A stretch of DNA of 64,000 nt from Thozetella sp. PMI_491 (lineage: Eukaryota; Ascomycota; Sordariomycetes; Chaetosphaeriales; Chaetosphaeriaceae). The stretch covers positions 124,001 through 188,000 of the forward strand of contig MU270053.1 in assembly GCA_021432635.1 (NCBI GenBank), in the 5' to 3' direction. The first letter of the stretch is position 1; every line of letters begins with the position of its first letter. The position numbers and the translations under genes were made by a program. Of this stretch, positions 6,262 to 17,852 are shown one piece after another. A model generated the notes under the pieces. It made no database searches and was not told the DNA's origin. It saw only the letters and a program-made list of their open reading frames with translations.

Positions 6262-8046
6262 ATGGCGCCCCCAACACCACGCGCGTCCCGTTCGGCGTCC
6301 GGAACGCAGAACGGTGGGCGAGCATCCCGACAGACCAAGGCACAGCAAGACGCCGAAGACCCAGTAGCTCCTCGGCTGGCCGACGAGGAAAGCCTCGAAG
6401 CTTCTGCTACCAATGCCTCGGAGGGATCCGAGCCAGAATCGCCGGCTCCGACGCCTAGTAGACGGAAGCGTGGCCGTCCGCCCAAATCCCCTGGCGCCAA
6501 TGGCTCGAAGAGAGCCGCATCGGTTTCAGGCACACCGTCCAACTCGCGGAAGAAGAACGTCGTGGCGACCCCGATACACCTGCGAGGCACCAACGGGGTG
6601 GACACGCCGAGGAGACGGAACATGGCGGATCGCTCTGCGAGGCGAAAGAGTACCAGGGCTATGATCGACCGTGTGGTGGGAGGCGCCTCGAGCGACGAGG
6701 ACGCAGGAGACGAGGTCCTGGCGCGCGAGATGTACGAGTCGAGCGACGAAGAGGAAGACGAAGAGGAGGAGGACGAGGATGAGGACGAAGAGGGCGCGGA
6801 ACAAGATGCAGCAGATCCTGAGGCTACTCCCTCGAGGAGAGGGAGGGGGAGGAAGAGGAAAGCGCCGATACGCAAGCGTGCGCGCCAGAAGTCTCCAACT
6901 CCTCCCCTCGATCTCCCTCCCTACGAGCAATACTTCTACCAGAACAAGCCAGGTGTGGCGAATAAGACCTCCAACAACACGCTCGCCTCGCTCGAGCTCC
7001 TCACACATGAGGAGTACTTCACCCTCCTTCCCCAGTGGGAAAACCGTCATGCGGCAGACGTGCAGTACCTCGAGTCGCTGCACGCCGAGTCGTTCCCGCA
7101 GTGGTGCTTCGAGCTGTCTCAGGGCTTCAGCGTCTGTCTCTACGGCTATGGATCCAAAAAGCCTCTGCTCACGAGCTTCGCCACGCACCTGTTCCGCCAG
7201 ACAGAAGACCATGATGCCGACAAGATCGTCGTGGTGAATGGCTACCTACGCAACACAACCACGCGCGAGATACTCTCTGCTGTGGGCAAGGCGCTCGACC
7301 CGGCTTACAAGCTACCTGCCGGTACGCCCGTTACAATGGTGCAGGACGTGCTAGCGCACCTGTCGGCGCACGGTGGCACGATCACCCTCGTGGTGCACTG
7401 CATCGACGCGCCCCCGCTGCGCAAGCAGGGCACGCAGGCAATTCTGGCACAGCTTGCCGCCCACGACAAGGTCCGGCTGGCGTGCAGCGCCAACACCGCC
7501 GACTTTGCCCTATTGTGGGATGGAGGACTGCGGTCGGGCTTCAATTTTGTCTTCCACGACTGCACGACGTTCGCGCCGTACACGGCTGAGATCGACGTCG
7601 TTGACGAAGTGCACGAGCTAGTGGGCCGCAAGGCGCGGCGGGTCGGCGGCAAGGATGGCGTGGTGTTCGTGCTGCGGTCCCTCCCCGAGAACGCGCGGAG
7701 TCTCTTCCGGCTGCTGGTGGGCGAGGTTCTCGTGGCCATGGAGGAGGAGGGGGGTGATGCTCCTGGCGGCGAAGGGCCAGGCATCGAGTACCGCATGTTG
7801 TACAACAAGGCGGTCGAGGAGTTCATCTGCAGTTCCGAGATGGCATACCGGCTGCTACTGAAAGAGTGAGTGCTACGACCCGACACCCCTTTATGCGTGT
7901 AACTACGTACTAACGAAGACCGCAACGGTAGATTCCACGACCACCAGATCATCGCAACACGGCAAGATGCTATCGGGACGGAGGTCTTGAGTCTGCCCTT
8001 TAGGAAAGAGGAGCTGGAGGCTATCCTGGAAGATTTGATGTCATGA
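6262..8046 (+). CDS. ORC2: Origin recognition complex subunit 2
   Basis: ORC2 is a core subunit of the six-protein complex that marks replication origins and loads the MCM helicase. Two exons, 6262-7865 and 7932-8046, with a 66-nt intron, give 572 aa. The first 215 residues are disordered, with basic SPxx/AT-hook-like patches (GRPPKSPG, GRGRKRKAPIRKRARQKSP) and a long acidic run near residues 155-185. The ORC2 core starts near 225. It shows the family's LYGYGSKKPLL (degenerate nucleotide-binding loop), VVVNGY, CIDAPPLR, LACSANTADFALLWD, and FHDCTTFAPYTAEI. The C-terminal winged-helix region ends in FHDHQIIATR in exon 2. The last helix matches the family's C-terminal FRDHKLI. A short exon carrying the C-terminus is essential for full length. 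Confidence 0.95.
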
Positions 8047-14667: not shown

Positions 14668-15450
14668 TCAAGCGGCCTTGACGACCTTGTCGTCGTCAAA
14701 CTCGATGTCCCGGACGCCGTCCTTAGTCACCGCCTTGACAACCATGCCTTTGAAGTCGATCGGTAACCGCCTCTTGAGCTCATCCGTGCACAGATTGAGG
14801 AGCTTGATGCCCTGCCCGAGCGTGATGTCCGGGTGGTGGTGCTTGTCCAGGATCGACAGGCAGTAATATCTACACAACATCGTCAGCGCGAGAGTCATCA
14901 AGGCGACCACAAGGCCGATAGACATACTGCGCGTATCCATGGGCGGCGTAAGGGAGGGGCGCCAGGGCTGCGAGGTAGTCCAGCCAGTACAGCGAGGGCT
15001 TGTGGGTGATAGGGTCCACGCCACCGAGGAGCAGGTTGACATTGTACGGCTTCCGCGACCGTAGACTCGACGCGAGCTCTCCGCGGACAAAGTGCGCCAG
15101 CGCGGAGGGGGAAAGGTCGGCCTCGTTGCGCATCGAGTAGAGCTGGGCGTTCGCTTGGATGTACTCGGCAAACTGGACTGTTGCGGCTCGGTCAGCTTCT
15201 CCCTCTCCTGGAGGGGCCTCAAACCCTTGTCCATACCTGTGTCTCCCGCCTCTCCAGAGAATGCGATCAGAGTGTGCTTATTGAGCTCCCGCGTCTTGTC
15301 ATCGCCGGCCTTGAGGATCGTGGCTCCTCGCATGGCAGCCTTGGAAGCTGCGATCAAGGTGAAGTCCTTGCCGGTGATGCCGAGTAGAACCTCCCTAGAA
15401 AGGCATTAGTGCTGGCATCATCGATCATCAGAATTAGGGCTCCCGTACAT
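14668..15450 (-). CDS. PRE1: 20S proteasome subunit beta-4 (Pre1 type), start codon split by an intron
   Basis: This is a non-catalytic beta ring subunit of the 20S proteasome. It has no propeptide and lacks the N-terminal Thr nucleophile, as expected for beta-4. Four exons: 15450-15449 (the two bases AT), 15394-15237, 15177-14928 and 14869-14668; introns 54, 59 and 58 nt; 203 aa. Matching yeast Pre1 are [58 protein letters not shown] and [20 protein letters not shown]. The conserved Met-Glu-Val start can only be made by joining AT (15450-15449) to the G at 15394: the one ATG closer to the acceptor meets a stop after three codons. The gene diverges from RRP9 over 391 bp. Confidence 0.93.
15395..15448 (-). 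other. First intron of PRE1, interrupting the ATG
   Basis: On the minus strand this 54-nt intron begins GTACGG and ends TTTCTAG, with a branch-like CACTAAT about 10 nt before the acceptor. It splits the start codon after its second base. In unspliced RNA the intron's first G also makes ATG, which reads ten codons and stops. Confidence 0.85.
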
Positions 15451-15841
15451 ATTGGCTTTGTTTCTCGCGGTGTTGTGGTCGGAAGGCGTGCTGGTATGCT
15501 TGCGGTTAGTTGTCGGGGGAGCTTCGTCGGTCTGCTCTCTGGAAGCAGCTCCCGGGAACGCGCAACTGGAGCTTCAGCCTGCCAGAACGCATGGACCCAC
15601 AAGTAGGTAAGCTGTGGGGCTGCCTTGCAGGCGGTGGTGGGAGGCAGAGGAGTGTGTCGGCGCGGGAATACTCCAGCTCCGGCCCTTATCGATTTCTTAT
15701 CGATGCGAGTTGCAAATCGGCGCAGTGCTCCACCGAGACTCTTAGAACTTTTTTTTTTGCGGCCCGCCAAACTTTCGATCCTCTACACACCGGCGAGGCA
15801 CCAGGCAGGCGATCACCGTCCAGTCGGCCGCAACAGCCACC
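15451..15841. promoter_or_regulatory. Divergent promoter region, PRE1 / RRP9
   Basis: The 391 bp separate the split start codon of the proteasome gene (minus) from the RRP9 ATG (plus). A T run lies at 15750-15759. I see no PACE-like (GGTGGCAAA) proteasome element in an exact form. Confidence 0.4.
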
Positions 15842-17852
15842 ATGTCGTCCTTTTTCACCAACCCAGGGGCCCATAAGAAGAGGAAGCGCCTTGCGTCCTC
15901 TGATGCGCCAAAAAAACGGGTTGCTACCTCAGCTTCGACCCCAAAGCCCACCGTCAATGGCGGCCGCCCCACCATGTCTTCGGACAGGAGAGCCAGGGGC
16001 TCGGACAGGAGAACAGAGAGGGACGACGAGTCTATCTCGGGAAGTGACGAGGAATCGGACGAGAACGATTTGGAATTGCCCGACGGGGACGACTCGGGGA
16101 CCGATTCAGACGGTTCAGATCTCGCAGCGGAGACGGCCGCCGAGAAGCGACTGCGGCTCGCCCAGCGATACCTCGATAAGGTGGCCCAGGAAGAAGTCGA
16201 TACCATTGGGTTCGACGCTGCCGACATTGACCGTGACCTCATTGCCGAACGCCTAGAGGAGGACGTGGCCGAATCCAAGGGCAAGGTGTACCGCAAGCTC
16301 GCCTCGAAGCTCGCATTCTCGAAAGCCACACACTCGCACTTTCGTTGGAACACGGACAATGCTACCTCGGTCGCTGTATGCCCGCCGTTTGCCTATACCG
16401 CCGACAAGAAGGGAGAACTGGTCAAATGGAGGATCCAGGACTTGCCCAAGGACCAATGGCCACAGTCAACAAAGAAGAAGCCTAAGAAGCAAGCCCCTCC
16501 CAAGAGAAGACCGGATTGGATATGCTCAACCAGGGCGGATTCGAGAAGAACTAAGGACAAACAATACCAGGGTCACGTCGGACCCATATTGACGGTCAAG
16601 GCCTCTGAGGATGGCAAGTTTGTGGTCACGGGAGGCGCCGACCGCAGGCTAGTCATCTTTGACGCCGAGACGCTGAAGCCGATCCGGATGATGGGACACC
16701 ACCGCGATGCAGTTACCGGCCTGGCATTTCGCCGTGGCACAAACCAGTTATACTCTTGCTCCAAGGATCGGACTGTAAGTTGCCTGCCAGCCAATTGAAA
16801 CGAGATCCCTCGAACCATAGGACTTACACACACAGGTGAAAGTATGGTCTATTGAAGAGCTAGCTTACGTTGAAACCCTCTTTGGACACCAAGACGAGTG
16901 CGTGGACATTGACGCCTTGGCGCAGGAGAGGTGCTTGTCCGTAGGAGGTGTGTGCTCCCCCCCTCGGCAAGAATCAGGCCCGCGTTGCTGACCAGTGCAA
17001 CAGCTCGAGATCGCACCGCCCGTCTCTGGAAGGTTGTCGAAGAGTCTCAGCTGGTGTTTCGTGGCGGATCCTCAGAGAAAAAGACCAAGACGCCTCCCGG
17101 TGTCGATCCCAAATCCCTCGCCCATGAAGGCAGCATGGACAGAGTCGCCATGATTGATAATGAGCTTTTTGTCACGGGCTCCGATTCTGGCTCCCTCTCG
17201 CTCTGGAGCATCCAGAAGAAGAAGTAAGAAACATTGGATGCCTGTTGATACGCTGGCCGGGCTATGGTTGCTAACCAGCTACGTAAACAGGCCTCTCTTC
17301 GTCCTCCCACGGGCACATGGCATTGAGCCCGCATTGAAGCTCTCAGAGACATCGGCTGAACAAAACCCAGATCCAGCTGTGGTACCGCCTCCCCAGCCGA
17401 GATGGATCACAGCGCTGCGTACCGTGCCTTACTCAGACCTTTTCTTCTCAGGGAGCTGGGATGGGTGCGTTCGCGTATGGAGACTTAGCGACGATAAGAA
17501 AAAAATTGAGGCGGTCGGGGTGCTAGGCCCGGGCAATAGTACAGATTCTAAACCCTCTGGCCAGGTCAACGGAGAGGAGACCCACGCTGAAGATGACGAG
17601 GTCAGCGAAGGCCCCAAGCTTATCAAGGGGGTCATCAATGATATTGCTCTGTTTGAGAGGGGGGAACGAGGGAAGGATGGCCTCTCGGTTGTTGTTGCCA
17701 CTGGCAAAGAGATACGGCTCGGACGCTGGAAGGTGGGCAAAGGCGGCAAGTGTGGCGCGACTGTATTTGAGGTACCTCGTGTCGAACAGGCTCGCGCAAA
17801 CGGCGCTTCTCAGTCGTCAGAGGATGAGGATGAAGAAGAGAGCGAGGCCTAG
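15842..17852 (+). CDS. RRP9: U3 snoRNP WD40 protein (Rrp9 / U3-55K)
   Basis: Rrp9 is the U3-specific WD-repeat protein of the small-subunit processome, acting in the nucleolus in 18S rRNA maturation. Four exons, 15842-16774, 16836-16947, 17004-17223 and 17291-17852, give 608 aa with introns of 61, 56 and 67 nt. The N-terminus has a nuclear-localisation-like HKKRKR and an acidic stretch (about 60-90). It is followed by a helical segment (RLAQRYLDKVAQEEVD) and then WD repeats, with typical strand ends such as LYSCSKDRTVKVWS, ARDRTARLW, VTGSDSGSLSLWS and SGSWDGCVRVWR. An acidic tail closes the protein. The blades preceding WIC..RRT match the family order. It diverges from PRE1. Confidence 0.93.

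Follow-up and report, generated by a model that had tools for sequence, protein, structure and literature searches.

A short predicted intron within the start codon of the proteasome beta-4 gene of Thozetella sp. PMI_491

The closest described counterparts of a start codon divided by an intron are found in Yarrowia lipolytica, where, according to one paper (PMC2911113), 47 genes begin with a one-base coding exon, the A of ATG. The same paper states that up to 93% of Yarrowia introns yield premature stops and that retained introns sit mostly near start codons. A second paper (PMC13309789) treats 42 Yarrowia introns that cut the start codon after its A, its T or its G as a class of their own, and reports that 82.0% of ORF introns (1426/1738) hold premature stops and that 33.6% of the genes with introns are alternatively spliced. 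Genes with introns in the start region are given there as having the highest expression and the lowest variability, introns near the start codon are associated with high splicing efficiency and stable expression, and ways in which retention can regulate are named. The counts of 47 (PMC2911113) and 42 (PMC13309789) come from different annotations and definitions. Introns that cut start codons are already in print, and the proteasome beta-4 gene considered here is one more example. The first-pass annotation of this DNA had described such start codons as rare, which may be true gene by gene, but such starts as a class are published, with the 47 genes divided after A in PMC2911113. A phrase search of the literature gave no title on a split beta-4 start among the matches listed, which does not imply absence from print, and the available parts of PMC2664464, PMC4084796 and PMC7049704 contain nothing on split starts.

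The likeness to Yarrowia is close in some respects and limited in others. In the A/TG genes (a slash marks the intron), as in beta-4, the intron cuts the start codon, and their retained introns mostly bring early stops, as intron 1 of beta-4 does (PMC2911113). In contrast, unspliced RNA of an A/TG gene has no AUG at that place, whereas the AT/G division of beta-4 necessarily recreates one, and the lineage differs. The 42 introns belong to the same class of position, the definition of which includes AT/G, but they pool three positions (PMC13309789). Yarrowia is also a distant yeast with an intron architecture unlike that of this genome.

The gene is on the minus strand of the window, by which is meant the whole stretch of 64,000 nucleotides that was analyzed and to which the positions in Table 1 refer. 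When spliced it has four exons with 612 coding nt for 203 residues. Across the start the minus strand reads ...AAAGCCAAT AT/GTACGGGAGCCCTAATTCTGATGATCGATGATGCCAGCACTAATGCCTTTCTAG/G GAG GTT CTA CTC..., with intron 1 (15448-15395, by a scripted coordinate check) reading GTACGG...CACTAATGCCTTTCTAG. Joining AT (15450-15449) to G (15394) gives ATG GAG GTT, the conserved Met-Glu-Val, and since GCCAAT is directly 5′ of AT there is an A at -3 of the start. Residues 1-193 of the spliced protein align to residues 1-193 of proteasome beta type-4 chains of solved structures (E ~1e-73), which we take to be those of yeast, and to 1-192 of most beta type-2 chains, presumably mammalian; PF00227 covers residues 4-182. 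The first of these alignments places beta-4 Met1 on the Met1 of the family, and the earlier identification of the gene as proteasome beta-4 (PRE1/PSMB2) is upheld by this near full-length, Met1-to-Met1 match together with PF00227. No second beta-4 copy was found in the genome: apart from the locus itself, exons 2 to 4 hit just one place, on C51, and poorly (24% identity, E 0.0028). Searches for beta-4 relatives in viral records (viral_contigs) and in bacterial and archaeal records (genome_contigs) gave 7 and 55 pattern matches respectively, with 0 confirmed in either.

Table 1. Features of the beta-4 locus in window coordinates, introns of alternative first-exon models, and first coding exons of the proteasome genes of this genome
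Feature	Position	Strand	Length or score	Basis or remark
Coding exon 1 (AT of the start codon)	15449..15450	minus		sequence and scripted coordinate check
Intron 1 (phase 2, within the start codon)	15395..15448	minus	54 nt	GTACGG...TTTCTAG
Mini-ORF on unspliced RNA, then TGA	15418..15450	minus		sequence
Probable branch site CTAAT, ~11 nt 5′ of exon 2	15405..15409	minus		sequence
Coding exon 2 (first base is the G of ATG)	15237..15394	minus		spliced model
Intron 2	15178..15236	minus	59 nt	spliced model
Coding exon 3	14928..15177	minus		spliced model
Intron 3	14870..14927	minus	58 nt	spliced model
Coding exon 4, including stop codon	14668..14869	minus		spliced model; PF00227 match of spliced protein
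Alternative introns (two), donor CCG/GTGTGT	donor 15790	minus	scores 19.1 and 16.8	
Alternative intron	donor 15862	minus	score 14.9	
Alternative intron	donor 15816	minus	score 14.7	
Alternative intron	donor 15772	minus	score 14.7	
Alternative intron	donor 15840	minus	450 nt; score 12.1	MVLLG without extension
beta-4, first coding exon			2 nt	hand model
beta-3 (L016), first coding exon			3 nt	hand model
alpha-7 (L022), first coding exon			3 nt	hand model
alpha-1 (L021), first coding exon			7 nt	hand model
alpha-3, first coding exon			24 nt	hand model
alpha-5, first coding exon			25 nt	hand model
beta-7, first coding exon			28 nt	hand model
alpha-4, first coding exon			31 nt	hand model
beta-1, first coding exon			34 nt	hand model
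alpha-6, first coding exon			38 nt	hand model
alpha-2, first coding exon			44 nt	hand model
beta-6, first coding exon			110 nt	hand model
beta-2, first coding exon			126 nt	hand model
beta-5, first coding exon			141 nt	hand model

Upstream of beta-4 a compact stretch of ~390 bp (window 15451-15841) separates it from a divergent plus-strand ORF that begins at 15842, for which only WD40 (PF00400) passes the cut-off among the 14 Pfam families listed and which is probably a Rrp9/U3-55K-like protein. The minus strand of this stretch has a 28-codon ORF (15592-15506), which would act as an upstream ORF for beta-4 should transcripts start 5′ of it.

By sequence, the start codon of beta-4 arises only through exon joining. 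Followed upstream from GAG, the reading frame of GAG GTT meets no ATG before a TAA at 15408, so that the conserved N-terminus requires an upstream exon, models with a longer intron being a minor rival that is taken up below. With its GT-AG ends, its branch motif, and a length and site scores within the range of the genome, intron 1 belongs with the short fungal introns of U2 type. The splice model used for scoring learned from 42 introns in 207.5 kb of the same genome, comprising the window and 20 further stretches, 13 of them picked around proteasome genes; beta-4 introns 2 and 3 were included and intron 1 was left out. On this scale the summed score of intron 1 is 14.6, within the trained range of 10.6-23.7 and above 9/42. 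Its splice sites are middling, 31% of the trained donors (over six intronic bases) and 26% of the trained acceptors being lower. These percentages are rough, as the self-made training set has few introns and a few of them, for instance those that end in GAG or AAG, look doubtful. A T in front of GT, as in intron 1, occurs in only ~10% of trained donors, and its splicing may therefore be incomplete. Among the self-trained introns 5/42 have CTAAT as their best branch motif, and intron 1 has a second CTAAT at ~15437-15433. Introns 2 and 3 resemble it in length (59 and 58 against 54 nt) and have branch and splice sites like its own.

Chance was gauged at 7,909 other AG/G sites on both strands of the 207.5 kb, stretches with N being skipped. 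An AT/GT donor as good or better lies 45-110 nt upstream of 130 of them (1.6%), and 0/7,909 reach intron 1 in donor, branch and acceptor together. The earlier description of an AT/G start divided by a 54-nt intron accordingly stands, on its coordinates, on the Met1 alignment, on the lack of an unspliced ATG and on this control. In a looser screen of the 207.5 kb for AT/G, A/TG or ATG/ starts, with a downstream coding exon required, 74 candidate exons gave four hits, among which the beta-4 intron is the only convincing start; six candidates were of phase 2 and two of these have AT, namely beta-4 intron 1 and an internal junction in L023. The AT/G hit in L023 was rejected as a split start since its donor is that of the internal junction; a pair of ATG/ hits in L016 fell away likewise, their donor being that of another internal junction. 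The screen is not exhaustive, as it missed the ATG/ starts of beta-3 and alpha-7 that were found by eye. A search of 72.3 Mb at E <= 1, with very common words skipped, matched intron 1 only at its own place, and an origin as an introner-like (repeated, mobile) intron was discarded for want of similar copies.

Left unspliced, the RNA would encode little. The ATG at 15450 opens 10 codons that close with a TGA ending at 15418, and a scripted reading reproduced the ten-codon peptide that the first-pass annotation had proposed. Further AUGs in the retained intron, at 15428, 15421, 15418 and 15406, have 24, 8, 7 and 3 codons; the one at 15428 is in a different frame, with an ORF that crosses the acceptor, and the one closest to the acceptor reads ATG CCT TTC TAG, ending after CCT TTC as previously noted. 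The first AUG of the beta-4 frame in such RNA is codon 22, at 15333. With the early stops and no AUG of that frame before codon 22, a retained intron gives no intact beta-4. The earlier remark that an ATG is read in unspliced RNA as well is correct but nothing special, since a GT donor brings the G and AT/GT rebuilds AUG in any unspliced RNA.

The most likely reading is that intron 1 is a constitutive start-codon intron. Very probably this is an ordinary beta-4 gene in which a short U2-type intron happens to split the ATG and is removed constitutively, with no dedicated switch. By analogy with Yarrowia introns near start codons, removal would be efficient as well as constitutive. Any unspliced RNA at ribosomes would initiate at the same AUG, stop after ten codons and be discarded, probably by nonsense-mediated decay given the spliced junctions downstream in beta-4 RNA. 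RNAs that stop early and have spliced junctions downstream are targets of that decay. The position of the intron would be one point among the first introns that crowd the start codons of the proteasome genes in this genome.

Regulated retention, where leaving intron 1 in tunes the supply of beta-4 through a ten-residue decoy, is very unlikely to be right. The use of the same AUG, the TGA after 10 codons and the absence of a beta-4-frame AUG before codon 22 would suit it, as would the middling donor and acceptor and the position of Yarrowia retained introns, mostly near start codons in PMC2911113. The first-pass claim that splicing chooses between protein and mini-peptide is logically true, but the same logic applies to any intron with a stop, and these are most Yarrowia introns in PMC2911113 and PMC13309789. 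In addition, a literature search on retention in proteasome genes gave no such title among the matches listed. The published data on start-codon introns are mixed and mostly against regulatory retention. Retention of intron 1 itself is possible; that it is regulated, or of consequence for the supply of proteasomes, is possible but unsupported.

A different first exon, with a longer 5′ intron from an upstream donor to the acceptor of intron 1 or one close by, giving an intact ATG and an N-terminal extension on beta-4, has a similarly small chance of being correct. GT or GC donors up to 500 nt upstream give 83 combinations of intron and start, and when these are ranked purely on their splice signals (donor, branch and acceptor), with no length penalty, the 54-nt model comes 13th, behind five longer introns that together fill 12 rows. 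But these five introns measure 378-468 nt and the trained ones 46-107 nt, though the trained lengths cannot exclude long introns as the training search spanned only ~45-112 nt. Among the best 40 of the 83 rows, all other than the 54-nt model have introns of at least 169 nt. The start codons of the five higher-scoring introns are at or inside the coding start (15842) of the divergent WD40 gene, and they would put at least 7 extra residues before a protein that starts at the conserved Met1 in solved relatives.

Less probable still is a trap in which splicing capacity sets the supply of beta-4, unspliced RNA being committed to the decoy ORF and to decay. As AT/GT always rebuilds AUG, retention keeps the initiation site and the 5′ leader and swaps only the downstream message. 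If true, this would set the gene apart from A/TG splits, where ribosomes would scan onward. Chance or an assembly artefact, with no intron and a sequencing error masking a normal beta-4 start, is scarcely credible in view of the TAA and zero ATG in the frame before GAG, intron signals that fall among those of other introns in this genome and a control in which no site matched.

The setting of the constitutive start-codon intron is provided by the other proteasome genes, 14 PF00227 places in this genome whose first coding exons were modelled by hand. In these hand models the first coding exon has 7 nt or fewer in 4/14 genes, and an intron directly follows ATG in 2/14, beta-3 and alpha-7. Against solved chains the alpha-7 model aligns 1-75 to 1-75 and that of beta-3 1-58 to 1-57; the eleven genes other than these two and beta-4 have presumptive names from yeast sequences. 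As in beta-4, beta-3 and alpha-7 have a short intron at the start codon and an exon 1 that codes for Met alone, with the difference that their ATG is whole, the intron being one base later. In beta-3 (L016, minus strand, oriented position 2091 on) a 76-nt intron separates the modelled ATG-only exon from a second exon of 19 nt, behind which lies another intron, so that a conserved gene has both a start-codon exon and a micro-exon. In alpha-7 (L022, minus strand, oriented position 2397 on) a 95-nt intron follows the ATG-only exon of the hand model and exon 2 opens with Thr2 of the conserved N-terminus. The gene in L021 (plus strand, position 1955 on), which we take to be the alpha-1 subunit, has in its hand model a 7-nt exon, ATGTCGG, and then a 101-nt intron. 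With first introns packed near starts in this way, an intron inside the beta-4 ATG would need no special cause.

For annotation this is a caution, since gene-finding programs that require an uninterrupted ATG, or a first exon of some minimum length, would truncate beta-4 to Met22 or miss its start. For the proteasome genes of this genome, first introns crowd onto the start codon, and a split ATG is one outcome.
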